From: Propionispira arboris
Lineage (GTDB): Bacteria > Bacillota > Negativicutes > Selenomonadales > Selenomonadaceae
DNA: 64,000 nucleotides
Direction of reading: 5' to 3'
NCBI RefSeq assembly: GCF_900109225.1
Contig: NZ_FNZK01000009.1
Location: 1-64,000 of the forward strand
In this document: one piece after another, positions 2,930-47,832 of the stretch
Position numbering within the stretch: the stretch's first letter is position 1
Layout: the number at the start of each line of letters is the position of its first letter
The notes under the pieces: generated by a model
The model's input: the letters and a program-made list of their open reading frames with translations, nothing else
Told to the model about the DNA's origin: nothing
Database searches by the model: none
Translations under genes and position numbers: made by a program

Positions 2930-4684
2930 ATTGGAAGACACGACTACAATGAAAAAAGCAGCAGCAGCGGCGGGAAAATAGGAACCGCAGGAATCGGCCT
3001 GCAAGGTAATGCCAGCAAAGGAAAAATCGATTCGAACTATGAATCCGTAACCACGCAGGCAGAAATCCATGCAGGACAAGGCGGCTTTAACATCGAAGTA
3101 GGGAAAAATACCGACTTAAAAGGTGCGGTCATTTCCAGCGATGCTACGCCAGATAAGAATAAGATCAGTACGGATACGTTGAGCTATTCGGATATTAAGA
3201 ATAAAGCGGACTATAGTGCAAGTAGTACAGGGGTAAGTTACAGCAATGGTGGAGATACAAAGAAAAAAGATCAAGGCTTAACGCCAAATATTGGTGTAAC
3301 GGTTTCGGGAGATGCAAATAGCACAACTCACTCTGCTATTTCACCAGGAACAATTATTGTTGGTGGAGTAAAAGTTAATCCTGACAACCTTAGTCGTGAT
3401 ACAACTAATTCACTAAATACATTAGGTAAGATATTTGATAAAAAGACTGTTCAAGAACAGCAGGAATTAACAAAAGTATTTGGCGAAGAAGCCTTTAAAG
3501 CCATTGGTGATTTAGCAGATGCACAATTGAAAAAAGCGGTTGCGAATGCTGCTAATAATAAAGATAAAGATCCTGTAGTATATCAGGAAGCTCTACACCA
3601 GATTTCTTTATGGAAAGCAGGTGGGGAAAACAAAATATTACTTGATTCAGTAGTAGGCGGTATGATGTCTAGCCTTGGAGGCGGTAGTTTTGGTTCTGGT
3701 GCAGTGAGTTCTGGATTAAATCAAGCATTTCAAGGAGAATTGTCCAAAATTACAGATCCAGCAGCACACCAATGGGCAAGTTTTATAATTGGATCAGCAG
3801 CATCTAAATTACTCGGTGGAGATGCTTTGACTGGCGGTAGTATAACAAGTAGTGAAACGAAGAATAATGACCTTGATCATGATCAACAGATTCAGTTTGC
3901 TGCTGACTTAACTTTGGCAATTTTTGGTGATGAAAAAACAAATGAAGAAGTAAAAGCAAATATTAAAGACGTGATTCAAAATTGGATAAATATAAATAGT
4001 CAAACAGATCCTGATCTAAAAGCTACCGATGAACCGACTATGTTGTTGATAGAAAGCGCTGCAGATACACTAGGAATTAAGTTTAGTTACAATGAAAACG
4101 ATAGCCTCACTAATAATTTAAATACCATCCAAAACAAGATAGATCTAGAAGATGTAATGCAGGAATCTTTTGCAGAGTTTCTACGACCAAGAGTTGAATA
4201 TGAATTAAGCCAAAAAGGTATATATCTATCCAATACTAATTATGCAGAAGAATATAAAAAAGAGTTTTACACAGAAAGGGAAAACCAAAAAATTGGATTA
4301 ATAGGAGCTGCTGATGATGTGGGCTCAGTTAATGGGTTAAAGAAAACCTTTGACACTGAAGGGCCAAGCGGAGCTTTCTCAAGATCTGCAAATTTAACTT
4401 CAGACATGGATACCTCGATATTTGGAAATTTAAAGAGTAATGGGATTATTGATGCAGGAAGAAGTGGTACTAATAGACCGCTTACAAGTGATCCAAACAG
4501 CTATTTTAAGACAAAAGCAGGAAATATTATTGTTTACGATAACGAAGGTAAATTGATATATGATATCAATAGTGAAAGAGTAAAAATTTTCGATATTAAT
4601 ATAAATCCACAAGGAGAAGAGTTTTTTAATCCAAGAAAATTAGATGGAGTTGTTCCAAGTGAAATTCTGGAGTTGTTAAAATAA
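2930..4684 (+). pseudogene. orphan cdiA-CT module: haemagglutinin-repeat stub plus second toxin tail
   Basis: The frame runs from just after a stop at 2927-2929 to 4684. The first ~80 codons (2945-3178) read as a filamentous-haemagglutinin repeat segment (GIGLQGN, DSNYESVTTQAEIHAGQGGFNIEVG-type, 'TDLKGAVISSDA'), which belongs in the middle of a full-length CdiA. There is no plausible start codon with a ribosome site and no export signal. The pretoxin part then matches the first gene, including 92 identical bases, up to E-T-K-N-N, after which a different tail of ~270 residues follows, ending in a 'NPQGEEFF…VPSEILELL' segment. This is the layout of orphan toxin modules kept downstream of cdiA, which can be moved into the expressed gene by recombination in the shared segment. 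The toxin activity is not recognised. Confidence 0.75.
3143..3237 (+). repeat. direct repeat shared by the two cdiA modules
   Basis: Bases 4-95 and 3146-3237 are identical over 92 positions, offset 3142, with a single mismatch just upstream. It encodes ATPDKNKISTD and the following 'LSYSDIKNKADYSASSTGVS' segment. Such a perfect tract would serve homologous recombination between the expressed gene and the orphan module. Confidence 0.9.
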
Positions 4685-18704: not shown

Positions 18705-18894
18705 CGAGTAACCTTAACTTTCAACTAAGAATAAGGCTACAGTATATCATGGGATTTGGGACATAATCAAAAACGGTATAGTAAGACATTATCATATATC
18801 GATCACACAAACTCCTAGGGTTTATACTAAATACTTGACAAACCAATATATTAAAGATATCATAATTATGTGTTTTCTAAGAATAACTACATAT

Positions 18895-19110
18895 CGATTG
18901 AATTGGGTGTCTGAAAGGACTTAATAGGGAAGTTGGATAAAATGCCAACGCGGTCCCGCCACTGTATTAGGGAGTGAATCCACAAAATGTCACTGAAGCA
19001 TAAACTTTGGGAAGGCGTGGAGAAACAATGATCTAGAGCCAGGAGAACTGCCCAGTTAACAATCACCGTTAGACCCGCGAGCGATGGGAAGGGGATTTAT
19101 AGGAATACTA
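18895..19110 (+). promoter_or_regulatory. cobalamin (B12) riboswitch
   Basis: The order of landmarks is that of the class: a GGGAA-type segment with paired GTTGG/CCAAC, GCGGTCCCGCCACTGTA, 'GGGAGTGAATCC', GTCACTG, and the B12 box GAGCCAGGAGAACTGCCC at 19036-19053, with a CCGTTAGACCCGCGAG-type 3' end. A terminator hairpin follows at once (19124-19152), so binding of adenosylcobalamin would stop transcription of the metal/corrinoid genes downstream. Confidence 0.92.
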
Positions 19111-19613: not shown

Positions 19614-20620
19614 ATGAAACAAAATCGAGAAAACTGCTTATCCTATTTTTGGCGGGCGTTGCCTTCGTTGGTGTTGGAATGATGACGAGCTATGCAGGTT
19701 ATAAACTAAATTCAGAGATTAAAGCGGTAACACCAGCTTTAAAACAAGCAACAGAAATTGGCGTTCGTGTTTTTGAAAATTCGGAAATGAAGGATTTAGA
19801 AAATAAAGATGCGATTGTGGTAATGAGTTTTGGTACGACCTTCAAGGAATCACGCAAAGTAACAATTGATAAAACAGTAGCGGATATTCAGGCTGCGCAT
19901 CCGAATACAAAGGTTGTATTGGCATTTACGTCACATATTATCGTTGATCGAATTCAAGCTAAAGAAGGAATTAAAATTCAAATACCGGAAGAAGTTTTAA
20001 TTGCTTTAAAACAGGACGGATATACTCGTGTAGCTCTTACGTCACTGAATCTGATTCCAGGAATGGAATATGCGTATAATAATGCAATTTTTGACTTATA
20101 CAAAACCAAATTCAAAAAAATGACATTGGGCACGCCATTGATGTATTGGACAGGACAGGCAAAGCAAAGAGATGATGTTACAGAATTCTTAAATGCACTT
20201 AAAACAGACTTTCCTCAAACAGGTAAAACAGATGCTATATTATTGATGCAGCATGGTACATCCCATCCAGGTAATGCTTATTATTCTGTTGTACAGGCTC
20301 GTCTTACTGAATTAGAAATGGATAATGTACTGATTTATACGGTTGAAGGATGGCCAAGTTTAGAAACGATTATTCCAAAATTAAAAGCAAAAGGAATTAA
20401 ACATGTCACATTGCTTCCAGTTATGATGGTTGCCGGAGATCATGCCAACAATGACATGGCAGGTGCAGATCCTGATTCACATAAGTCCATTTTGGAAAAA
20501 GAAGGTTTTAAAGTAGATACATATATTCATGGCGTTGGTGAAAATGAAAATGTTCGTAAGCTTTTTGTTGATCGTTCGAATGAATCGTGGAACGCATTGC
20601 AAAGTGCAACAATTAAGTAG
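19614..20620 (+). pseudogene. cbiK: cbiK-type sirohydrochlorin cobaltochelatase with N-terminal membrane segment; frame broken just after the start
   Basis: ATG 19614 follows GGGAGGAAAA, but its frame stops after 22 codons. The true protein lies one base off: S-R-K-L-L-I-L-F-L-A-G-V… from about 19625 to 20620. Adding one A to the A-run at 19621-19624 restores MKQKSRKLLILFLAG, an export signal or membrane anchor, like the periplasmic CbiK of Desulfovibrio. The enzyme core is intact: 'VVMSFGTTFKESRK', 'LAFTSHIIVDRI', the catalytic-His segment 'LLMQHGTSHPGNAYY' and 'LLPVMMVAGDHANNDMAG'. By family knowledge it inserts Co2+ into sirohydrochlorin. Either the base is missing through a sequence error or the gene is off. 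Confidence 0.8.
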
Positions 20621-34228: not shown

Positions 34229-34369
34229 GTAAGACCTTAGTATAGCTTTTTTCTGTCTTAGCGTCAAGGTACTGCGGGATTTTTAGTTTTTAATGGAGAT
34301 TTTTTATTTTGCAGATATGGTTATGTACCGTTGACGGCTATGCTGATTCTTGATATAATCAATTCAATC

Positions 34370-34457
34370 TCTTATAGGCGATGGAGTTCGCCATAAATTT
34401 GTTCGGTGAACAATGATGACTCCTACCATTTTTCTAAATGGTAGGAGTCTATTTTTT
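34370..34457 (+). promoter_or_regulatory. fluoride (crcB-motif) riboswitch with terminator
   Basis: AGGCGATGGAGTTCGCCATAAA, a short hairpin, and GATGACTCCTACC make up the conserved core of the crcB motif, including the pseudoknot-forming GGAGT/ACTCC. The 3' part forms GACTCCTACC paired with GGTAGGAGTC, followed by TATTTTTTTG, as terminator. Fluoride binding would release transcription of the DUF190 and fluC genes. Confidence 0.93.
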
Positions 34458-34566: not shown

Positions 34567-34902
34567 ATGGCTGCTATTAAAAAGTGCGCGAAACGGTTAC
34601 GGATTTATATCGGTGAAACGGATCATTATGACCGCATTGTAAAAAAAGCCAAGGAGCTTGATATGGCAGGGGTTACGGTTTTTCGTGGGATCATGGGTTA
34701 TGGTGAAAACAATCGGCAAATTCGGTCGGCAAAGTTGGTGGAGCTATCCTGTGATTTGCCGATTGTGATTGAAATTATCGACAGTGAGGAATATATTGAT
34801 AAATTCATGCCGCATTTGGATACGCTTGTGCAAAAAGGTATGATTACGATTGATGATGTTAAAGTTTTAAAATATGGGAAGCAGCTTCCCGGGCATGAAT
34901 AA
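34567..34902 (+). CDS. DUF190-family protein of the fluoride response
   Basis: ATG 34567 follows ATAGGAGGG, 110 bases after the riboswitch terminator. The 111-residue cytosolic protein has 'RIYIGETDHYD' at 12, 'AGVTVFRGIMGYGENN' about 34-50 and 'LPIVIEIIDSEEYIDKFMP' about 65-85, the standard features of DUF190 (PII-like fold). Such genes often stand next to fluC. Its role with the channel, perhaps as a cytosolic regulator, is not established. The next gene starts within about a dozen bases. Confidence 0.88.
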   Translation: MAAIKKCAKRLRIYIGETDHYDRIVKKAKELDMAGVTVFRGIMGYGENNRQIRSAKLVELSCDLPIVIEIIDSEEYIDKFMPHLDTLVQKGMITIDDVKVLKYGKQLPGHE

Positions 34903-34913
34903 AGGTGGGGTCA

Positions 34914-35426: not shown

Positions 35427-36116
35427 ATGAAGTTGGAGATTTCAGAAAAGAAAAAATATGAATCGATACGTGAATATGCTTTGCGAATCATGAATAAAAA
35501 CTTGTTGAATATGAATCTCGCCCCCGGCATGGCTTTGTCAGAGCAGGAAATAGCCAATGAACTGGAGATAAGCCGGACTCCTGTGCGGGAGGCGTTTATT
35601 CGCTTGGCTCATGATAATTTATTGGATATTTTGCCGCAAAAGGGTACTTATGTAGCAAAGATAGATTTGGGACAGGTTGCAGAATCTATTTTTTTGCGGG
35701 AAACGATGGAACATGCAATTATGCAAGTCGCCTGTAAAAATTTTTCGGAAAGTAGTCTGCAAAAATTGCAGTCTTGTTTGGATTTACAGGAACTTTGTGT
35801 GAAAAGAGATGACTTTCCACGTTTTTTTGAAATGGATGGAACGTTTCATGGGATCATCTTTGCTGCGTGTGATAAAACTCGGATTTGGCAAATGATTGAG
35901 CAGATGAGTTTGAACTATAATAGAGTTCGCATGCTGAATTTGGTGAATGGGTATTATGAAATGCCAAAGCTGTTTGGTCAGCATGAGGATATTTTTATGG
36001 CAATTGAGCAGTCCAATTGGGAAAAAGGCGAGAAAGTTATAGGCGAGCATATTAATAAAGTGTTAAAAGATACAGAAGATTTAAAAGAGAAATATCCATT
36101 ATATTTCAAAGACTAA
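35427..36116 (+). CDS. GntR-family regulator of the FadR (FCD) subgroup
   Basis: ATG 35427 follows GTAGGAGCG. Of 229 residues, the first ~75 form a winged helix: 'LSEQEIANELEISRTPVREAFIRL' then 'LDILPQKGTYVAKID'. The remainder is an all-helical FCD domain with the metal-binding type D…H…H pattern ('MDGTFHGIIF', 'QHEDIFMAIEQ', 'GEHINKVL'). Its ligand is probably a sugar acid. It stands before the uxuA operon on the same strand and likely represses it, as UxuR/ExuR-type regulators do. Confidence 0.85.
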   Translation: MKLEISEKKKYESIREYALRIMNKNLLNMNLAPGMALSEQEIANELEISRTPVREAFIRLAHDNLLDILPQKGTYVAKIDLGQVAESIFLRETMEHAIMQVACKNFSESSLQKLQSCLDLQELCVKRDDFPRFFEMDGTFHGIIFAACDKTRIWQMIEQMSLNYNRVRMLNLVNGYYEMPKLFGQHEDIFMAIEQSNWEKGEKVIGEHINKVLKDTEDLKEKYPLYFKD

Positions 36117-36412: not shown

Positions 36413-36430
36413 ATACTAGTATGGTAGTAT
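36413..36430. promoter_or_regulatory. candidate operator before uxuA
   Basis: ATACTA and TAGTAT, separated by six bases, form a perfect inverted repeat 35 bases before the uxuA start. Size and symmetry fit a GntR-family site; the binding protein is inferred to be the regulator at 35427. Confidence 0.4.
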
Positions 36431-36464
36431 GTCTATAACAATTATAGAGCTGGAGGAATTTAAA

Positions 36465-37544
36465 ATGAAGATGACATTCCGTTGGTATGGGAAAGATGAA
36501 GATAAAATTACATTGCAGCAAATTCGGCAAATTCCAGGTATGGATGGTGTTGTTGGTGCATTATTTGATGTACCGGTAGGTGACGTTTGGCCGTTAGATA
36601 AAATTATGTGTCTTAAAAAAGAGATTGAAGATCATGGACTTGCTTTTGAAACGGTAGAAAGTGTTAATGTACATGAAGATATTAAACTTGGTTTACCAAG
36701 CCGGGATAAATATATTGAAAATTATATTGAATCTTTAAAAAATCTTAGCAAAGCCGGCGTTACGGTTGTTTGTTATAATTTTATGCCGGTTTTTGATTGG
36801 ACTCGTACGGAGCTTGCAAAACCGCTTTATGATGGGTCTACGGCATTAGCCTTTGACTATCACTTAATTGAGGGGAAAGATCCCCAGACGATGGTAAAAG
36901 AAATTCAGGCAAGCAGTAACGGGTTTTCTTTGCCTGGCTGGGAACCGGAACGTTTGAAAGAATTGACGCATTTATTTGAGCAATACAGCGATGTTGATGA
37001 AGAAAAACTATTTGAAAATCTTGGCTATTTTTTGAAAGCAGTTGTGCCGAAAGCCGAGCAATATGGGATTCAATTAGCAATCCATCCGGATGATCCACCT
37101 TGCAGCGTGTTTGGCTTACCGCGTATTGTGACAAGTGAGAAAAATTTAGCACGTATTGTGGACTTGGTAGACAGCCCAAGCAATGCACTAACAATTTGCA
37201 GTGGGTCACTCGGCGCAAATCGGGAAAATGATATTCCACAAATTATTCGGCATTTTGGGAAAATGAATCGTTTAGCTTTTGCACATATAAGAAATGTTCA
37301 AGTGCATGAACCATGGGTATTTAATGAAGTTGCCCATAAATCAAAATTTGGTTCGCTTGATGTATATGAAATGATGCGTGCCTTGTACGATGTTAATTTC
37401 ACTGGACCGGTTCGTCCGGATCATGGCAGAATGATTTGGGGAGAGGTTGGACGCCCGGGTTATGGACTTTTTGATCGAGCCCTTGGTGCGAACTATTTAT
37501 GCGGCTTGTGGGATGCCATTTGCCGGGAAAATAGCAGAAAATAG
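36465..37544 (+). CDS. uxuA: D-mannonate dehydratase
   Basis: ATG 36465 follows CTGGAGGA; the upstream ATG at 36429 lacks a site. The 359-residue TIM-barrel enzyme begins 'MKMTFRWYGKDEDKITL' as UxuA proteins do. It carries 'VCYNFMPVFDWTRT' near residue 105, 'LAIHPDDPPCSVFGLPRI' near 207 and 'HIRNV' near 270, which include metal-binding His/Cys residues. The enzyme removes water from D-mannonate to give 2-keto-3-deoxygluconate (EC 4.2.1.8), the last special step of D-glucuronate breakdown. It is followed by uxuB, 18 bases on. Confidence 0.93.
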   Translation: MKMTFRWYGKDEDKITLQQIRQIPGMDGVVGALFDVPVGDVWPLDKIMCLKKEIEDHGLAFETVESVNVHEDIKLGLPSRDKYIENYIESLKNLSKAGVTVVCYNFMPVFDWTRTELAKPLYDGSTALAFDYHLIEGKDPQTMVKEIQASSNGFSLPGWEPERLKELTHLFEQYSDVDEEKLFENLGYFLKAVVPKAEQYGIQLAIHPDDPPCSVFGLPRIVTSEKNLARIVDLVDSPSNALTICSGSLGANRENDIPQIIRHFGKMNRLAFAHIRNVQVHEPWVFNEVAHKSKFGSLDVYEMMRALYDVNFTGPVRPDHGRMIWGEVGRPGYGLFDRALGANYLCGLWDAICRENSRK

Positions 37545-37562: not shown

Positions 37563-39170
37563 ATGAAACTCAATGTGGAAAGTATGCAAGATGTATTTAC
37601 TTGGAAAAGTAAAGGAATAGCATTACCAGAGTTTGATCGCAGCAAAATGCTGCAGGAAACCGCAAAAAATCCAAGCTGGCTGCATTTTGGACCGGGAAAT
37701 ATATTTCGTGCTTTTATTGCTTCCTTGCAGCAGAATTTGTTAAATCAAGGGGCTGTGAACACGGGAATCATAGTAGCCGCAACGAATACTAGGGAAATCA
37801 TTGAAAAAATTTATCAGCCACATGATAATTTGAACTTATTGGTTACGTTGTATCCAGATCAAACCACTCGCAAAACTGTAATTGGCAGCATTGCAGAAAG
37901 CTTGACTTGCCGTACGGAAGAAAAAGCTGATTGGGAGCGGCTGCAAGAAATTTTGTGTAGACCATCGCTTCAGATTATGAGCTTTACGATTACCGAAAAA
38001 GGGTACAAGATCAAGGCGAAAGATGATACTTACTTACCTGATATTGCTGCAGATCTGCTAGCTGGACCCAAAGCACCGCAAAGCTTTTTAGCAAGGGTAG
38101 TTTCGTTACTCTATGAACGTTATATAGCAGGTGCTTGTCCGTTAACGCTTTTGAGTCTGGATAATTGTTCACAAAATGGTCTGGTCTTGAAAAAGGCAGT
38201 ACAAGAGATTGCCCAAAACTGGGAACAAACAGGTCTTGTCAAAGCTGGTTTCATGGAGTATTTAAGGCAACAAGTCGCTTATCCGTGCAGTATGATTGAT
38301 AAAATAACACCACGTCCGTCTGAAAAAATACAAAAAGAACTTTTGCAAGACGGATTTACGGATATGGAGTTTATTTCTAGCCAACGTGGTGGCTGTTATG
38401 CTCCTTTTGTCAATGCGGAAAAGACCGAATATTTGGTCGTAGAAGATACATTCCTTAATGGAAGGCCGCCTCTCGAAAAAGCTGGTGTGATTTTCACAAA
38501 CCGCCAGACGGTTGATTGTGTGGAAAAAATGAAGGTTTGTACATGTTTGAATCCACTGCATACAGCATTGGCGGTTTTTGGCTGTTTGTTAGGTTATACA
38601 TTAATTGCCGATGAAATGAAAAATCCGTTGCTCTATAAGCTTGTTGAAAATATTGGTTATCAAGAAGGTATGAAAGTTGTCGCCGATCCAGGGGTATTAA
38701 ATCCACAAGATTTTCTACGGGAATGTTTGACAGAACGTTTTCCAAACCCCGCAATACCGGATACACCACAGCGCATAGCTTGTGATACTTCACAAAAACT
38801 TGGCATTCGATTTGGTGAAACGATTAAAGCGTACCAAAAATCACCAGATTTAGATGTGAAAAACCTTACGTACATTCCCTTGACGATTGCGGGCTGGTGT
38901 CGTTATTTGCTGGGTCTTGACGATTCTGGCAATTCATTTACGGTGAGTCCCGATCCATTATTGGAAGAGTTACAGGGGCATTTGGCCGATGTACATTTTG
39001 GTACAAACATGGATGTTCATGCTGCTTTAAAAACGATTCTCAGCGATCCAACTATTTTTGGCTTGGATTTATATAAAATTGGGCTAGGAGATCGGATTGA
39101 AGTCTATTTTAAAGAAATGATTACTGGACCGGAAGCTGTTCAGAAAACTTTGCGGAAATATTTGGGCTGA
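37563..39170 (+). CDS. uxuB: D-mannonate oxidoreductase / fructuronate reductase
   Basis: ATG 37563 follows GAAGGATATAAG. The 535-residue protein belongs to the mannitol-dehydrogenase family: 'LHFGPGNIFRAFIA' near residue 40 is the nucleotide-binding opening, 'SFTITEKGYKI' about 140 and 'LLSLDNCSQNG' about 200 follow, and 'PCSMIDKITPRPS' near 241 is the conserved substrate-site motif with K. It would reduce D-fructuronate to D-mannonate with NADH, feeding UxuA. It is somewhat longer than E. coli UxuB (about 486 residues). Confidence 0.9.
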   Translation: MKLNVESMQDVFTWKSKGIALPEFDRSKMLQETAKNPSWLHFGPGNIFRAFIASLQQNLLNQGAVNTGIIVAATNTREIIEKIYQPHDNLNLLVTLYPDQTTRKTVIGSIAESLTCRTEEKADWERLQEILCRPSLQIMSFTITEKGYKIKAKDDTYLPDIAADLLAGPKAPQSFLARVVSLLYERYIAGACPLTLLSLDNCSQNGLVLKKAVQEIAQNWEQTGLVKAGFMEYLRQQVAYPCSMIDKITPRPSEKIQKELLQDGFTDMEFISSQRGGCYAPFVNAEKTEYLVVEDTFLNGRPPLEKAGVIFTNRQTVDCVEKMKVCTCLNPLHTALAVFGCLLGYTLIADEMKNPLLYKLVENIGYQEGMKVVADPGVLNPQDFLRECLTERFPNPAIPDTPQRIACDTSQKLGIRFGETIKAYQKSPDLDVKNLTYIPLTIAGWCRYLLGLDDSGNSFTVSPDPLLEELQGHLADVHFGTNMDVHAALKTILSDPTIFGLDLYKIGLGDRIEVYFKEMITGPEAVQKTLRKYLG

Positions 39171-39300: not shown

Positions 39301-41091
39301 ATGACTGCGAAAAACAGAAAAATTACAATTCCGATTGGCATTGGCTATGGATTAACTGATTTAATGGGTGGCGGTGCATTTACCATTATCGGAGCGTGGA
39401 TGCTTTTCTTTTATACAACCTATGCAGGCTTAACACCAGTTCAGGCTGCTTCCATAGTCGGAATTGCTCGGATCGTTGATGCGGTTGTCAGTCTGGCGAT
39501 TGGCAGTATATCCGATAATTTTTTCAAGAATAGTCTTGGAAAACGGTTCGGACGCCGCCGCTTTTTCTTACTAATTGGGTCACCCCTCATGTTGGTGTAT
39601 GCTTTGCTTTGGCTTACCGGCATGAGTTATTGGTATTATCTAACCTGTTATTTAGCTTTTGAAATTATTGCAGCGATGGTATTGATACCTTGGGAAACTT
39701 TACCATCAGAAATGACAACCGATTTTAACTCTCGAACCAAGCTGTCGACCTGTCGTATGTTTATATCCTCTACGGGTGTTTTTTTAGCTACGTTTATTCC
39801 ATCCATCTTAATTCGTTATTTTGGTGAAAATAATGCGTATGCTTATACGTTAAATGGTACGATTTTTGCGGTATTGTTTGCGATCTGCCTCTTTATTAGC
39901 TATAAAGTGACTTGGGAAAGAGATCTTACCGCGAAAATGAAAGAAGAACTTCTTCAAGCTGAAGTGCCACAAAGTTTTGCACAAAGATGTGCCAGTATTG
40001 TCTATATTGCCCAAGAATATTGGTCTACTTTAAAGGTTAAAGCTTTTCGTCAACATTTATTGATCTATATTTGTTCTTTTACGGGAAAAGATGTTTTTAA
40101 TACAATCTTTATTTTCTTTGCTGTATTTTGTCTGGATCTTCCATCAGCAAATGCCGCAGATATACTTTCACTTAGTCTTATTGGAATACCGACAACAATT
40201 GCGGGTGGTTTCTTAATGATTAAATTTGGCCCGCGCAATTTGTTTAAAATTTCGTATATAACAATGATTGCCTGTTTGTTTGGCTTTTTTGCCGTATATC
40301 TTTATGATCCGGCTTCAAAATTAGCTATTTTATATGCACTTGGTTTTTTCTATCAAATTGGTCGTCAGCTTCTCGAATTTACACCCTGGAATGTTTTTCC
40401 TTTTATTCCGGATGTAGATGAAATTATATCACAGAAAAGAAGAGAAGGTTTGTTTGCGGCGGTAATGACTTTTTCGAGAAAAACTACAGTAGCAATTGCT
40501 ACCATTATTGTAGGTTTTGTTATGCAAGAAGGTGGCTTTGTTAAAGGGCAGTTAGTCCAATCACCAGAAGCGATTCATACGATTGCGAATACATTATTGA
40601 TTGGAACAGCTGGTTTGATTGGTATTGCATTGTATTTTGCCTGGCACTTTAAGCTGAATAAACAAACCCATGCGGTGTTGATTCAAGAAATTGATCGTTT
40701 AAAAGCTGGGGGAAGTAAAGCGGATGTCAGTATTGAAGCAAGGGCGGTTACAGAAGAGTTAACAGGGTATAAATATGAAGAGCTTTGGAGTCAGCCAAAT
40801 GAAGTAGAAAATCCAAAAGGAGTGGAAGCGGATCAATTGGTTTTGGCAAATGCAATTTTGAAAAATGTTGGTGGTGCCTATAATATTGATTATTATACAT
40901 ATTGCGCTACCCGTCTAAGAATTACATTATCCGATAATACAGCGGCAAATTGCGAAGTTTTAAAGAATTTAGATGGTGTTAAAGATGCTGTTATCGTTGG
41001 TGAACAGCTCCAGGTAGCTTTGGAGAAAAAAGTAAATCGTGCTTATAATGCTTTACAAAGCGTAATTGGCATAAAAAATAAAAAGAAATAA
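39301..41091 (+). CDS. GPH-family glycoside/hexuronide symporter with a C-terminal PTS EIIB-like domain
   Basis: ATG 39301 follows ATAGGAGGAATTC. Residues 1-455 have twelve helices and features of the glycoside-pentoside-hexuronide family ('GYGLTDLMGGGAF', 'ARIVDAVVSLAIGSISDN', 'GKRFGRRRFFLLIGSPLM'). From about 505 to 590 a separate domain resembles the glucose-family EIIB: 'ILKNVGGAYNIDYYTYCATRLRI' in pieces, with the phospho-accepting-type Cys at residue 535 and 'LKNLDGVKDAVIVGEQLQVAL'. Known GPH regulators such as LacS carry an EIIA-like tail instead, so EIIB is unusual. Import of glucuronides or alpha-glycosides for the neighbouring enzymes is inferred. Confidence 0.82.
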   Translation: MTAKNRKITIPIGIGYGLTDLMGGGAFTIIGAWMLFFYTTYAGLTPVQAASIVGIARIVDAVVSLAIGSISDNFFKNSLGKRFGRRRFFLLIGSPLMLVYALLWLTGMSYWYYLTCYLAFEIIAAMVLIPWETLPSEMTTDFNSRTKLSTCRMFISSTGVFLATFIPSILIRYFGENNAYAYTLNGTIFAVLFAICLFISYKVTWERDLTAKMKEELLQAEVPQSFAQRCASIVYIAQEYWSTLKVKAFRQHLLIYICSFTGKDVFNTIFIFFAVFCLDLPSANAADILSLSLIGIPTTIAGGFLMIKFGPRNLFKISYITMIACLFGFFAVYLYDPASKLAILYALGFFYQIGRQLLEFTPWNVFPFIPDVDEIISQKRREGLFAAVMTFSRKTTVAIATIIVGFVMQEGGFVKGQLVQSPEAIHTIANTLLIGTAGLIGIALYFAWHFKLNKQTHAVLIQEIDRLKAGGSKADVSIEARAVTEELTGYKYEELWSQPNEVENPKGVEADQLVLANAILKNVGGAYNIDYYTYCATRLRITLSDNTAANCEVLKNLDGVKDAVIVGEQLQVALEKKVNRAYNALQSVIGIKNKKK

Positions 41092-41109: not shown

Positions 41110-41145
41110 TTTGAAGCGGTTATGAAACCGCTTCAAACTTATTTT
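41110..41145 (+). terminator. hairpin after the symporter gene
   Basis: TTTGAAGCGGTT and AACCGCTTCAAA flank a four-base loop, followed by CTTATTTTAT. Partial read-through into the GH31 genes is possible. Confidence 0.65.
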
Positions 41146-41185: not shown

Positions 41186-43696
41186 TTGATTTGTGCAACA
41201 AAAGTTACAAACAGCAAAAAAATCGAAAATGGTTATTTGATAGAAACGGATGGACCCTTTATAAAGCTTATTTTTTTAACGAAAGATATTATTAGAATAA
41301 GGACATCATTTGATAAAAAATTTATTGAAGAATCTTATGTACTAACTTTAACCGCCTGGGAAGATCGATTTGATAACTTTCTAGGTAAGGAAAGAAAACG
41401 AATCAAAGCGCTTGATGTTTCGTATACGGAAGATAAACAAAAAATGATCTTTAAAACGAGCAGTTTAATACTCGAGCTCTATAAAGAACCATTTGGTTTC
41501 AAATTATATGATCATAATAAAGTGTTGTTGTATTCCGATTTGATAGGCAGATCTTTTGTCAAAGATCAGTTAGGCAGAAGATATCATTATAATGCGATTG
41601 ATTTAGATAAAGATCATTTTTATGGGTTTGGTGAAAAAACAGGAAACTTAGACAAAAAAGGACAACGGATGATGATGAGCCCTAAAGATGCGATTGGACA
41701 TGATCCCGAAAATGGCGATCCTTTGTACAAACATATTCCGTTTTATATTCGCATCAATGAAACCAGCAAAAAGGCAGTGGGTCTGTTTTACAATAACTCA
41801 TATGATGCCGTTTTTGATATGGGCCGTGAAATTAGTGGTTATTGGCCACGCTATAGTTATTATATGACCGATGGTGGTGATATTGATTTATTTTTAATTC
41901 ATGGACCAAAAGTTAAAGATGTAGTGACGAAATATACAGATTTAACAGGTAAGCAGGCGTTTCCACCTAAGCAGTCATTAGGGTATACGGCTTCGACAAT
42001 GTATTATGCTGAGCTCAAAGAAAACTGTGATCAAGAAATTTACAATGTGATTGATAAACATAGCAAAGAGGACATACCAATTGATAATTTTTGGCTGGCA
42101 TCCGGATATTCGTCTGGTGAAGAAGATAATTTACGTTATACCTTTAACTGGAATCATAAAAAATTTCCTAGCGTAAATGAATTTTTTCGCAGTATGAATG
42201 ATAAGGGAATTAATGTTATACCAAACTTAAAACCGGGTGTACTAAAAAATCATCCTTATGCTAAATATTATGCAGAACAATCGGCTTTTATTAAAGATGC
42301 AGACAATAAAGAAGCCTGCTTGGGAAACTGGTGGGGTGGACTTGGGAAATTTATTGATTTTAGCAAACCAAGCGGTAGAAATGCATGGAAGAAATTGCTA
42401 AAGGAAAACATTTTGACAAAGGGAACCAGTACCGTATGGAACGATAATTGTGAATATGATGGGATTACGAATAAAGAAGCTATTTGTGATTTTGATGGCG
42501 GCTTAGGGACTATGGCACAGTTGAAAAGTCTGCAGAGTAATTTAATGGCACATGCTGGGAGAGAGGCAATTGCCGAAGTTTATCCAGAGGCTCGTCCTTA
42601 TATCATTAGCCGAGCCGGGTTTGCCGGGATTCAAAGATATGCACAAACTTGGGCCGGCGATAATTTGACAGATTGGCGTACGCCTAAGTTTAATATCAAT
42701 ACAATTATTGGTATGGGTCTGTCTGGTGTAGCGAATAATGGTTGTGATATTGGCGGCTTTGCGGGAAAAGCACCTGAGGCTGAACTATTATTACGCTGGA
42801 TTCAAAACGGCATTTTTCAACCTAGGTTTGTTATAAATTCGGCAAATAATGATAATACAGTGACGGAACCATGGATGTATGCTGAAAATATTGAATTCGT
42901 CAGAGCAGCCTACAAATTAAGATATAAATTATTGCCATATATGTACTCCTTAATGTATGAAGCTTGCAGTGAAGGTACACCGATTATTAGACCGTTGTTT
43001 TTAGAATTTCAAGACGATACAAGATGTTTGACGGATGATAACTTTACGTTTATGTTTGGATCAAGCATATTAGTAGCGAATGTTTTTGATAAGGGGGCAG
43101 TATCTAGGAAATTATACTTGCCGGCCGGATCAGATTGGTATTACTGGGAAACAATGGAGAAATTTGATGGTGGACAAGAGATTGAAATACCGATATCTTT
43201 AGCATCAATTCCAATGTTTTTTCGAGATACTGCTATTGTGCCAATGACCGAGGACATATCAAATATCAGTAAAGATCAAGTTGAAAAATTAGAATTGGTT
43301 ATTGCGACGGATAGGAACAGCAAATTTACATTTTATGAAGATGATGGAAAAACGAATGAATATTTAAATGGTACATATTTAAAAACTATGATTACGGTAA
43401 AAAATAAAATAAGATCAGAAATTATTTTTCATAAAGAGGGTAAATTTGTTTCAAGTATTGAAAGCATATTTTTAAAGGTAATTCATAAAGAAAAAGGGGC
43501 TTATTGGGTTACTGTTAATGAGAAGCAGCTAAAACAGTATTTACATGTTGATACCTTCGCCAAAGCAGTTGAAGGGTGGTATTATAATCCTTCAAGGGGA
43601 GTTGTATGCATAAAATATAAAAATATTCCAATTGATTACAAAGTCGTGGTCAGTTTTGAAAAATTCGATTTAATTGGCATGGACGATGAATTGTAA
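41186..43696 (+). CDS. glycoside hydrolase family 31 enzyme, copy 1
   Basis: TTG 41186 is ten bases after AAAGGAG. The 836-residue protein has an N-terminal beta-sandwich with 'FYGFGEKTGNLDKKG' near residue 148, a TIM barrel and C-terminal beta domains. The catalytic nucleophile is Asp420 in 'TSTVWNDNCEYDG' and the acid/base Asp492 in 'QTWAGDNLTDWR'; 'NIDGCDIGGFAG'-like N-G-C-D-I-G-G follows. The family cleaves alpha-glycosidic bonds (alpha-glucosidase, alpha-xylosidase and others); substrate specificity cannot be read. No signal peptide, so it acts in the cytosol on imported oligosaccharides. A paralogue follows 81 bases on. Confidence 0.9.
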   Translation: MICATKVTNSKKIENGYLIETDGPFIKLIFLTKDIIRIRTSFDKKFIEESYVLTLTAWEDRFDNFLGKERKRIKALDVSYTEDKQKMIFKTSSLILELYKEPFGFKLYDHNKVLLYSDLIGRSFVKDQLGRRYHYNAIDLDKDHFYGFGEKTGNLDKKGQRMMMSPKDAIGHDPENGDPLYKHIPFYIRINETSKKAVGLFYNNSYDAVFDMGREISGYWPRYSYYMTDGGDIDLFLIHGPKVKDVVTKYTDLTGKQAFPPKQSLGYTASTMYYAELKENCDQEIYNVIDKHSKEDIPIDNFWLASGYSSGEEDNLRYTFNWNHKKFPSVNEFFRSMNDKGINVIPNLKPGVLKNHPYAKYYAEQSAFIKDADNKEACLGNWWGGLGKFIDFSKPSGRNAWKKLLKENILTKGTSTVWNDNCEYDGITNKEAICDFDGGLGTMAQLKSLQSNLMAHAGREAIAEVYPEARPYIISRAGFAGIQRYAQTWAGDNLTDWRTPKFNINTIIGMGLSGVANNGCDIGGFAGKAPEAELLLRWIQNGIFQPRFVINSANNDNTVTEPWMYAENIEFVRAAYKLRYKLLPYMYSLMYEACSEGTPIIRPLFLEFQDDTRCLTDDNFTFMFGSSILVANVFDKGAVSRKLYLPAGSDWYYWETMEKFDGGQEIEIPISLASIPMFFRDTAIVPMTEDISNISKDQVEKLELVIATDRNSKFTFYEDDGKTNEYLNGTYLKTMITVKNKIRSEIIFHKEGKFVSSIESIFLKVIHKEKGAYWVTVNEKQLKQYLHVDTFAKAVEGWYYNPSRGVVCIKYKNIPIDYKVVVSFEKFDLIGMDDEL

Positions 43697-43777
43697 ATAT
43701 ATGATATTGCATGAATTAAAAATTGCGACAGCTAGGGGTATTATAAAAAATAAAGATTATCGAGGGAGGCCTTGCTT

Positions 43778-46267
43778 ATGAAAGTGAGCAGAAAAATTGT
43801 AAAAATAGAGAATCATCATACTTATTTAGATATAGAGACAGATGCGGGTAAGTATCGATTGATCTTGTTAAATGACGATATTGTACGGATTCGCTGTACG
43901 TTTGCAGCTGAATTCAAACCAGAGGCTTCCTATGCACTGGTCCTGACAGCTTGGCAAGATCATATGGACGAGTTGCTGCAAGGCGAAAGAAAAAGAGTAG
44001 AAGCCATTGCTGTGGCTTATCAAGATTGTGATACTTATATTTTATGGGCTGCTAAAAAATTAAATATCAAAATTCACAAAAATCCTTTTGCAATAGAGAT
44101 TTCAGATAAAAACGGAAATATATTGCATTCCGATTTACAAGAAAAAGCCAGTGTGCAAGATGACTTAGGGAGAATTTATCATTATTCCTGTATGGATGAT
44201 GATGATTATTTTTATGGGTTTGGCGAAAAAGCAGGAGTTTTAAATAAGAAGAAACGTCGAATGAGAATGCATAATGTTGATACGCTTGGCTATGATTCCG
44301 AATTGACAGATCCACTGTATAAGCATATTCCGTTTTATATTAAGCTAAATAGCAAAAACAATATAGCGAGCGGTTTATTCTATAACAACTCCTACGATTC
44401 TGTTTTCGATATGGGTTGTGAAAGAAGTGGGTATTGGAATACGTATAGCTATTTTTGCGCAGATGGAGGAGAGCTCGATGTATTCTTTATTTGTGGGCCG
44501 AAAATAAAAGATGTCATAAAAAATTATACGGATTTAACAGGAAAAACAATCTTGCCAGCAAAATATTCCTTGGGCTACATGGGATCTACGATGTATTATA
44601 CGGAATTAGATGTTTCTGCTGACAAGGCTATTCTACAATTTTTGGACAAATGCAAAGAAGAAGAAATTCCGTGCGATGGATTTTTCTTGTCTTCAGGTTA
44701 TACTGCAGGGGCGGATGGAAAAAGATATGTATTTAACTGGAACTATGACCGCTTTACGAATCCTCAAGGATTTGTAGAAGAAATGAAGGAAAAGGGCGCT
44801 GCATTAGCACCCAATATCAAACCGGGCATGTTAACGACGCATCCTTTATATAAAGAGTTTGCTGCGGCCGGGGCCTATATAAAAGATGACAGTGATGAGA
44901 AACCGCAAACTGACAGGTATTGGGGGGGACAAGCTTCTTTTGTTGATTTTACAAACCCTAAAGGTCGTGAACTTTGGAAAAAGCATTTGCAAGAAGCAAT
45001 TGTTTCCCTTGGAATTACCTCAATCTGGAATGACAATAATGAATATGAAATGAATGATTTAGCATCAATTTGTCACTATGAGGGACTGAAGGAAAACGTG
45101 AGTGCCTTGCGCCCCCTTATGCCAAATCTTATGGCCTTTATGGCTAAAGAAACCGTTTTAGAGACGTATCCTAATATTAGGCCTTATATTGTCAGCCGAG
45201 CTGGGTTTGCCGGTATTCAACGTTATGCCCAAACCTGGGCGGGGGATAATAATACAAGCTGGAAAAGTTTAAAATTCAATATTCCGGTGATACTCGGTAT
45301 GGGTTTGTCCGGGGTAGCGAATCAGGGCTGTGACATTGGAGGATTTTTTGGACCGGCCCCTGAACCGGAACTCTTTGTCCGATGGATACAAAACGGAATT
45401 TTCCAACCGAGATTTTCAATTCATTCTTGCAATACGGACAATACTGTTACGGAACCGTGGATGTTCCCTTCATATACAAAATATATTAAGGCGGCTATTC
45501 AATTGAGGTATCGTTTAGTTCCTTATTTGTATTCATTGCTTGTGGAGGCGGCTACTGAAGGTTCACCGATTATGAGACCCTTAATTTATGAATTCCAAGA
45601 TGATCACAATGTACTGGAAGAGAGTTTTGATTTTATGCTAGGCAGTTCCTTGTTGATTGCTAATATCTTAGATAAGGGTGCAAAAACAAGGCAGGTTTAT
45701 TTGCCAGCAGGAGCAGAATGGTTTGACTGGTATACTAAGAAGCGTTACGAGGGCGGACAAATAATTGAAGTAGAAGTATCGCTGGGTTCCATTCCGATGT
45801 TTATTAGAAGTGGTGCTATTATACCAATGAGCGAAGAATTAACGAATATTCATAAGGCTGTAGGTGAAACACTGCATCTGCTTGTGGAAGTCTCAAGCGA
45901 GGCGGAATTTAGCTTATATGAAGATGATGGTATTACAAATCACTATAAACACGGCGATTATTTGAAAACAAAAGTTAATATCAACAAAAGTAATGGCACG
46001 AAAATTACCTTTACGCCGGAAGGCAGCTTTTTGACACCCGTTAAAGTAGTGCAGTTAGACCTAATCTGCCATGATATCGCACCAATTCAAATTAGATTGC
46101 AGGATAGGAAACTCTCGATGTTTCTAAATCAACGGGAATGGCAAGCAAGTACTGCCGGCTGGTACTATGATATGGAACAAAAAACAGCTAAAATTAAATA
46201 TAGTAATATAAATGCAACCTACACCATACATGCCGATTTTGCTGTTAAAGATTTAATTTCGGTGTAA
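43778..46267 (+). CDS. glycoside hydrolase family 31 enzyme, copy 2
   Basis: ATG 43778 follows GAGGGAGG; the TTG at 43772 is too close to that site. The 829-residue enzyme is a clear paralogue of the preceding one, with the same order: 'FYGFGEKAGVLNKK', Asp419 in 'TSIWNDNNEYEMND' as nucleophile, Asp490 in 'QTWAGDNNTSWK' as acid/base, and 'NQGCDIGGFFGPAPEPELF'. Overall similarity is moderate, so the two probably differ in substrate. Cytosolic. A terminator follows directly. Confidence 0.9.
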   Translation: MKVSRKIVKIENHHTYLDIETDAGKYRLILLNDDIVRIRCTFAAEFKPEASYALVLTAWQDHMDELLQGERKRVEAIAVAYQDCDTYILWAAKKLNIKIHKNPFAIEISDKNGNILHSDLQEKASVQDDLGRIYHYSCMDDDDYFYGFGEKAGVLNKKKRRMRMHNVDTLGYDSELTDPLYKHIPFYIKLNSKNNIASGLFYNNSYDSVFDMGCERSGYWNTYSYFCADGGELDVFFICGPKIKDVIKNYTDLTGKTILPAKYSLGYMGSTMYYTELDVSADKAILQFLDKCKEEEIPCDGFFLSSGYTAGADGKRYVFNWNYDRFTNPQGFVEEMKEKGAALAPNIKPGMLTTHPLYKEFAAAGAYIKDDSDEKPQTDRYWGGQASFVDFTNPKGRELWKKHLQEAIVSLGITSIWNDNNEYEMNDLASICHYEGLKENVSALRPLMPNLMAFMAKETVLETYPNIRPYIVSRAGFAGIQRYAQTWAGDNNTSWKSLKFNIPVILGMGLSGVANQGCDIGGFFGPAPEPELFVRWIQNGIFQPRFSIHSCNTDNTVTEPWMFPSYTKYIKAAIQLRYRLVPYLYSLLVEAATEGSPIMRPLIYEFQDDHNVLEESFDFMLGSSLLIANILDKGAKTRQVYLPAGAEWFDWYTKKRYEGGQIIEVEVSLGSIPMFIRSGAIIPMSEELTNIHKAVGETLHLLVEVSSEAEFSLYEDDGITNHYKHGDYLKTKVNINKSNGTKITFTPEGSFLTPVKVVQLDLICHDIAPIQIRLQDRKLSMFLNQREWQASTAGWYYDMEQKTAKIKYSNINATYTIHADFAVKDLISV

Positions 46268-46596: not shown

Positions 46597-47601
46597 TTAT
46601 AGTTTGAGTATTTCCTGCCATACATTTTCATCGGCGGGAATTCCTTGTTCCATATTTTCACGGCGTGTTTTTGCAGCTAATTCGCCAGGAAAGTAAATTT
46701 CTCCGCCTTCTTTTACTGGTTCGGAAGCTTTTATATAGGCAATCGTTTCATTTAGAGTTTGTTCGACAAAAGTCTTTGTTCCAGCGGCATAAGGGTCAAT
46801 AACGACAAAAATTTGACTGCAGCCGCCGCAGCTTCCTTCATGGACTTTATCAATCCCAGAAGTAGCCAAACCATTCGATAAAATTGCAGCTACGGTATCA
46901 AGTAAAATAGCAAATCCAGATCCTTTCCAGTAACCTGTTGGCAAAATTCGCATCGATTCCTCAATAAGGCCAGGGACACTGGTTAGGTTGCCGTCTTTAT
47001 CATAGCCGCCTGGTACGGGCAAAAGCTCATTTTTAAGTCTTGTCACTTGCAGTTTACCATAAGAAAATTGTGACATAGCCATGTCTAGGACAATATTTCC
47101 CTCAGTTCGCGGCAGTGCCATTACAAAAGGATTATTACCAACCCGGGTGTTTTTTGCGCCCCAAGTCGGCATGCAAGATTCTGTATTGGTCCAGCAAATC
47201 CCAGCATAGCCTTGATTGGCTGCATCCCAGCCATATGTACCGCCGCGCATCCAGTGCGTGGTGTTGCGTAACGTAACAAGTCCAATACCAAATTTTTTGG
47301 AAATTTCAATGGCACGATTCATAGCAAATTTTGCATTCAGTATGCCAGGACCGCGATTCCCGTCATAGTTTTCGATAGCTCCCGCATTTAAAAATAAAGT
47401 AGGCTCAGCATTTATATCAACCCAGCCTTTTTGTACGTAATCAACAAATCGAGCCACACGATTTAGACCATGGGAATATACCCCGTCGCGACTTGACTCG
47501 GTATGGACTTGTGCACAGATATCCGCCTTTTCTTCCGACATTCCGACTTTCAAAAAAACTCGCTTTACTTCTGCTTTCATTGTTTCAAAAGGTATTCTCA
47601 T
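46597..47601 (-). CDS. dlgD: malate/L-lactate-dehydrogenase-family reductase, probable 2,3-diketo-L-gulonate reductase
   Basis: On the minus strand, ATG 47601 follows GTGGAGGAAAATAA; the GTG at 47616 lies within that site. The 334-residue protein matches E. coli DlgD/YiaK along its length by eye: 'SRDGVYSHGLNRVARF' near 48, 'GIGLVTLRNTTHWMRGG' near 108 (catalytic His), 'WGAKNTRVGNNPFVMALPR' near 150, 'MAMSQFSYGKL' and 'GYWKGSGFAILLDTVAAIL'. Such enzymes reduce a keto-sugar acid with NADH. It lies in the sugar-acid island opposite to the GH31 genes, with an AraC regulator divergent from it. Confidence 0.8.
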   Translation of the reverse strand: MRIPFETMKAEVKRVFLKVGMSEEKADICAQVHTESSRDGVYSHGLNRVARFVDYVQKGWVDINAEPTLFLNAGAIENYDGNRGPGILNAKFAMNRAIEISKKFGIGLVTLRNTTHWMRGGTYGWDAANQGYAGICWTNTESCMPTWGAKNTRVGNNPFVMALPRTEGNIVLDMAMSQFSYGKLQVTRLKNELLPVPGGYDKDGNLTSVPGLIEESMRILPTGYWKGSGFAILLDTVAAILSNGLATSGIDKVHEGSCGGCSQIFVVIDPYAAGTKTFVEQTLNETIAYIKASEPVKEGGEIYFPGELAAKTRRENMEQGIPADENVWQEILKL

Positions 47602-47832
47602 TTTATTTTCCTCCACTCATAATTTGATTTAATGAATTAAAATTTTCCCGGCATATTGACGGGTATCTATTTATCTAATATAACTGTTTTATTTTTATGA
47701 ATAATCTAATAATTTAATCTCTGTACACAAAATATCAATCATTAGACTACTATTAATCTACATCTTATAGAATGTTTTGAACATATATTATATAATTATA
47801 TTTGTACTATCTCACTATTTATGGAGGTGCTT

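Follow-up and report, generated by a model that had tools for sequence, protein, structure and literature searches.

A single gene of Propionispira arboris encodes a carrier of the GPH/MFS_2 type fused, in one protein, to a glucose-superfamily PTS EIIB domain, and this architecture is well supported. The gene lies in a stretch of 64,000 nucleotides, hereafter called the window. Our preferred reading, to which we assign a probability of roughly 0.55, is that the product is a LacS-like, PTS-controlled hexuronide:cation symporter of the GPH family, whose regulatory EIIB domain would be phosphorylated on its cysteine by an EIIA protein. What we infer in this reading is that C535 is phosphorylated, that an EIIA is the donor, what the carrier transports, and how and in which direction transport is affected.

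Architecture of the fusion protein

The gene is a single open reading frame of 596 codons, with an ATG start and a GGAGG close upstream of it (Table 1). The proposal of the initial annotation, a GPH symporter joined to an EIIB-like domain, was confirmed by Pfam, where both halves scored above cut-off: MFS_2 (PF13347) matched residues 15-453 (E = 9.8e-40, 136.8 bits against a cut-off of 27) and PTS_EIIB (PF00367) matched residues 518-550 (E = 7e-10, 38.6 bits, cut-off 27). With NCBIfam models the EIIB similarity was wider than the PF00367 span and stretched to residue 595. The best EIIB match, also significant, was to the EIIB part only of TIGR01995 (beta-glucoside IIABC; residues 515-595, E = 6.3e-18), whereas TIGR00826 (EIIB_glc) remained below its cut-off of 45.75, with 31.2 bits for the whole protein and 38.2 bits for the tail alone. 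When the tail alone was compared by sequence with EIIBs of solved structure, the best match was 3ipj (E = 3.7e-06). The tail had originally been placed at residues 490-596; the domain is indeed present there, but it starts near residue 513, and residues 490-512 are the transporter end plus a linker.

The carrier half matched TIGR00792 (gph) over residues 14-465 with E = 3.7e-40, yet its 137.9 bits fell below the cut-off of 231.35. The carrier is thus a divergent relative, and we assign it to the GPH:cation symporters (TC 2.A.2) by MFS_2 profile and fold only. In Pfam searches at E ≤ 1, no EIIC family was matched in the protein, its membrane part being MFS_2, and there was no match to PF00358 (EIIA-Glc) either, which rules out a LacS-like EIIA tail. 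A frameshift or assembly artefact was also ruled out, because two other genomes have homologues (99% and 76% identical) in which one open frame spans transporter and tail, each with MFS_2 and PF00367 above cut-off.

Table 1. Features of the fusion gene and its surroundings (window coordinates)
Feature	Coordinates	Strand	Basis
GntR/FCD regulator	35427..36116	+	profile match, synteny
UxuA mannonate dehydratase	36429..37544	+	PF03786 E=7.1e-155; TIGR00695 above cut-off
Fructuronate-reductase-like protein, mannitol dehydrogenase family	37563..39170	+	Mannitol_dh domains; PRK15037 E=2.4e-46, below cut-off
GPH symporter-EIIB fusion gene, 596 aa	39301..41091	+	ORF, Pfam, NCBIfam
GPH/MFS_2 transporter part, residues 1-495	39301..40785	+	MFS_2 match; structural matches of the model to MFSD2A and MelB
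Linker, residues 496-512, poorly conserved	40786..40836	+	4/14 aligned residues (28.6%) kept, window vs Pelosinus
EIIB domain, residues 513-596	40837..41088	+	PF00367 and TIGR01995 matches; predicted EIIB fold
Active-site motif C535-A-T-R538-L-R540	40903..40920; Cys codon 40903-40905	+	motif scan, EIIB comparison
Terminator-like hairpin 3' of fusion gene	41110..41137	+	12-pair stem, T-rich tail; consensus scan only (12 such sites in region vs 8.8 in shuffles)
GH31 glycosidase	41186..43696	+	PF01055 E=9.3e-78
GH31 glycosidase, second gene	43772..46267	+	PF01055 E=1.3e-87

As for the active site, C535 sits in the only C-x-T-R-[LIVM]-R found by a six-frame scan of the window (CATRLR). We compared the tails of the window protein and of its Pelosinus homologue with nine PTS EIIBs from the window's own genome, the domains being located by C-x-T-R-[LMIV]-R, a pattern present in all nine loci. 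Ten positions were invariant in those nine (G524, N528, C535, T537, R538, L539, R540, G559, Q571 and G575, in window numbering); the Pelosinus tail keeps all ten, including the glycine at position 575, and the window tail nine, the exception being G575, which is replaced by E. Identity of the window tail to the individual EIIBs ranged from 23.5 to 36.4%.

Structure prediction gives the tail an EIIB fold. Its model, computed on a 106-residue piece, had a mean pLDDT of 77.4 (piece residues 21-100 in blocks at 83-89) and the secondary structure order H-E-E-H-E-E-H; it is a prediction for which the underlying alignment included other EIIBs. Foldseek returned six PDB matches at E ≤ 0.001, all of them EIIBs or EIIB-bearing PTS proteins; the model matches 3ipj, 3bp3, 1o2f (EIIB with EIIA) and 3bp8 (EIIB with Mlc). 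In the full-length model (mean pLDDT 75.6), the membrane part matches the MFSD2A and MelB structures; this model does not place the tail, where pLDDT is mostly below 50.

Occurrence, constraint and origin

The fusion looks rare, having been found in three genomes from two genera. When we surveyed GPH proteins for such a tail, examining the best 80 of 134 confirmed relatives in genome contigs, two carried it with the C-x-T-R-L-R motif: one from Propionispira raffinosivorans DSM 20765 (L019, 99% identical) and one from Pelosinus fermentans JBW45 (L020, 76%). The claim of the initial annotation that Cys535 is kept therefore held in both fused homologues; one of the two being a 99% copy, the conservation is in effect that between two different tails, one from each genus. 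The other 78 relatives are tail-less: they measure 497-523 residues from the homologous start, end near residue 500 and have no motif. They include a Megamonas protein (L022), 77% identical and encoded in a similar cluster.

Wider searches gave the same picture. Among the matches listed for 380 genomes of the class, three covered transporter and tail, namely the window's own, one at the place of L019 (G146) and one at that of L020 (G071); in 398 genomes of the phylum only the window's own did so (E ≤ 1e-20). Among the matches listed in 398, 97, 391 and 295 genomes from four other groups there was none (E ≤ 1e-20), the furthest reaching residue 538 across two stops (L143). These genome samples partly overlap, mostly three or four candidates were scored per genome, and distant GPH-EIIB proteins may escape. 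A search of five genomes recovered the JBW45 fusion again, and 264 plasmid records gave a match, the 15 listed all ending at query residue 531 or earlier. In a pattern scan of 172 loci, both halves shared one frame only in loci from the same three genomes.

Several further candidates were rejected. L170, L171, L172, L131, L133 and L135 have N-terminal extensions or motif-less transporter ends; the tblastn match of L045 runs to residue 588 past the stop of an ORF that has no motif; and no frame of L143 contains both halves. Searches of openly licensed PMC papers, in their accessible portions, turned up no description of EIIB joined to a GPH or MFS carrier, which is weak evidence of absence.

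Codon changes show that the tail is under constraint. Between the window and L019, its 82 codons differ at seven bases, all silent, with no replacement; assuming that roughly one random change in four is silent, simple arithmetic puts the chance of this near 6e-5. Against Pelosinus, where dS is saturated, identity was 65% in the tail and 79% in the transporter part. Clustering of identity near C535 was weak (17 of 21 positions, against 51 of 80; 932 of 20000 shuffles reach this).

As far as the origin of the fusion is concerned, one gain plus a loss, two gains, and transfer appear indistinguishable from the trees. A corrected tree of the transporter part (32 rows, three of them outgroup; L106 left out) united the fused Propionispira and Pelosinus proteins with the tail-less Megamonas protein in one set with support 100. 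The same set had received 98 in an earlier tree, in which the outgroup row L103 was probably misread and from which L105, L106, L107 and L142 were absent. The best tree joins Pelosinus with Megamonas at a support of only 25, so that a single fusion origin is neither shown nor rejected; alternative orders survive the AU test (p-AU 0.453 for a fused clade, 0.154 for Propionispira with Megamonas).

Gene neighbourhood and likely substrate

Genes for hexuronate use and for GH31 glycosidases flank the fusion gene, so the substrate of the carrier is probably a hexuronide rather than lactose, cleaved by GH31 inside the cell. The carrier has the LacS plan of a GPH transporter bearing a PTS domain but is probably not LacS-like in substrate. 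The Pelosinus cluster corresponds to that of the window (GntR 51% identical, UxuA 75%, dehydrogenase 55%, fusion 76%, GH31 83%) and has a glucuronate isomerase gene directly 3' of the fusion (PF02614 E = 2.1e-199; PRK02925 above cut-off). In Megamonas the cluster comprises GH31, the tail-less carrier, GH31, UxuA and the dehydrogenase. No RNA family was found within the fusion operon at gathering thresholds, and the scanned neighbours included no antiterminator that could act as a local EIIB partner.

Some other features of the window were recorded. A 3-dehydro-L-gulonate 2-dehydrogenase is encoded at 46597-47616 on the minus strand (PRK13260 above cut-off), and homologues (62-65%) occur near tail-less carriers in 10 of 80 other loci. 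A fluoride riboswitch (Rfam RF01734, 43.5 bits; 34368-34432, plus strand) precedes a small ORF at 34567 and, further downstream, a CrcB gene (PF02537) at 34905, the genes running to 35300. A cobalamin riboswitch (RF00174, 105 bits; 18888-19069, plus strand) lies 5' of the gene at 19649 for the cobalt chelatase CbiK. Finally, two large TTG-start ORFs (37-2004 and 3179-4684, plus strand) have their first 20 residues in common and then diverge; each is followed by a small ORF, there was no Pfam match, and they may be orphan contact-inhibition tails with immunity genes.

Proposed control of the carrier and alternative roles of the tail

The fusion is a variant on the known LacS-type plan, not a separate kind. 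Like it, the LacS and RafP proteins of streptococci and lactobacilli (GPH-type, with a C-terminal EIIA-Glc domain) bear a glucose-superfamily PTS domain on a likely phospho-controlled symporter. Their tail, however, is an EIIA (His, donor HPr), whereas that of the fusion is an EIIB (Cys, donor EIIA); the substrate of the fusion protein is probably a hexuronide, and the protein is without a PF00358 match. A carrier control domain phosphorylated on Cys by EIIA, as opposed to His by HPr in LacS, is plausible. MelB has the same transporter fold and family profile as the fusion and is subject to PTS control at the cytoplasmic side, but it is not known to have a fused PTS domain and is bound directly by EIIA. 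Beta-glucoside-type PTS permeases (TIGR01995, 3ipj) provide the best-matching type of EIIB, with the same motif and fold as the tail, but there the domain is attached to EIIC and passes its phosphate to the sugar. The tail-less GPH relatives (Megamonas L022, enterobacteria, clostridia) are 54-77% identical in the transporter, and many have uxuA-, dehydrogenase- or GntR-type genes beside them; unlike the fusion, they end near residue 500.

According to the accessible portions of the papers cited here, the EIIA-like domain of LacS is phosphorylated by HPr and controls transport (PMC10710835), and the EIIA-Glc domain of LacS and RafP is needed for full transport activity, as stated in a paper on the PTS of L. 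gasseri (PMC2848229). In MelB, a GPH member, EIIA-Glc binding reduces sugar affinity with Na+ binding unaltered, and the C-terminal tail helix may take part in the inhibition (PMC10942615). In B. subtilis, glucose-family EIIAs phosphorylate the EIIBs of other permeases that have no EIIA of their own (PMC6148471). A review of SSS symporters describes, in its accessible part, fusions to sensor-kinase domains, and its mentions of the PTS there are not about fusions (PMC7918813).

Combining the LacS, RafP, MelB and B. subtilis EIIA precedents, the most economical reading would be a relay from EIIA to C535 that controls the symporter. EI and HPr would hand phosphate to an EIIA-Glc-type protein, which would in turn phosphorylate C535; the tail may double as an EIIA dock beside the cytoplasmic end of the carrier. 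In the absence of PTS sugars, phosphate would sit on the tail and the symporter would be active; a PTS sugar would drain the phosphate, and the tail, no longer phosphorylated, would slow import whether or not EIIA is bound to it. In favour of this mechanism are the significant EIIB match, the nine retained invariant positions, the predicted fold, the shared architecture and motif of the Pelosinus protein, the wholly silent tail changes between the Propionispira copies, the PTS genes of the genome and the published precedents. Speaking against this mechanism are the number of distinct tails (two), the G575E replacement, a tail that diverges more than the transporter, the 78 of 80 relatives that are tail-less, the TIGR00826 score and the unplaced tail of the full-length model. 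Because natural tailed and tail-less homologues exist at ~77% identity, the role of the tail is directly testable.

If the relay is real, phosphorylating an EIIB tail on Cys would be a second way of controlling a symporter, one relay step further down; PTS domains would be interchangeable control modules for secondary carriers; and a few anaerobic bacteria would have an unusual way to tune an ion-driven importer to the sugars already available. A bolder version, for which the odds seem to us somewhat short of even, takes the fusion as a separately built second class of carriers under direct phosphorylation control, here a hexuronide symporter that EIIA would switch through its Cys, the tail recruiting EIIA to the membrane, with, at the far end, some sugar-phosphorylating ability.

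It seems rather unlikely that the tail is a reporter or sensor instead of a transport switch, its phosphorylation state serving either to hold back a repressor, in the manner of EIICB-Glc and Mlc, or to phosphorylate a PRD antiterminator. Dephosphorylated EIICB-Glc does sequester Mlc, according to the accessible part of one paper (PMC3901232). Any EIIB would match the one in the Mlc/EIIB complex, and so does the tail model; in addition, the genome encodes two CAT_RBD antiterminators. Neither of these, however, shares a contig with the fusion gene: they map to C28 and C37, which carry EIIB and EIIA matches as well. The regulators near the fusion gene are of the GntR/FCD and AraC types, which are not known to be EIIB partners.

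Inducer exclusion by binding only, in which the tail would recruit dephospho-EIIA to block the carrier as in MelB, with C535 phosphorylation incidental or merely freeing EIIA, we judge unlikely. EIIA-Glc inhibits sugar binding by MelB (PMC10942615, accessible part) and an EIIB is an EIIA-binding domain, as in the 1o2f complex that the tail model matches; yet the catalytic motif is kept, beyond the expected need of a mere docking domain. A neutral or decaying fusion, that is, a captured EIIB piece without a role in transport, would fit its rarity, the faster change of linker and tail than of the transporter, and G575E, but it is very improbable given the wholly silent tail changes between the Propionispira copies and the catalytic motif retained in Pelosinus. 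Group translocation, with EIIB~P phosphorylating the sugar on delivery by the symporter, is scarcely credible: both arginines of C-x-T-R-L-R, which mutant work has tied to phosphate transfer to sugar, are retained, but the protein has no EIIC domain, the MFS and EIIC folds are not known to be related, the UxuA/UxaC pathway encoded nearby uses free hexuronates, and tail-less relatives occupy similar clusters.

Returning to the EIIA-to-C535 relay, the type of the EIIB (glucose superfamily), together with the EI, HPr and EIIA genes of the genome, is consistent with phosphorylation by an EIIA. We counted ten PF00367 matches, fusion included, and eight PF00358 EIIA-Glc matches, all above cut-off; two of the latter occupy short frames of just 175 and 171 residues. 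The pattern around H-x-G-x-D-T, which we take to be the EIIA active-site stretch, is present in seven of the eight EIIA loci and absent from L013. The HPr gene (a 92-residue frame) adjoins the EI gene. About 2 kb from these two, on contig C15, we also noted a 581-residue frame (L156) with an HPr domain near its start (PF00381, 66.1 bits), followed by regions that, judged by eye, are PAS- and sigma-54-activator-like.
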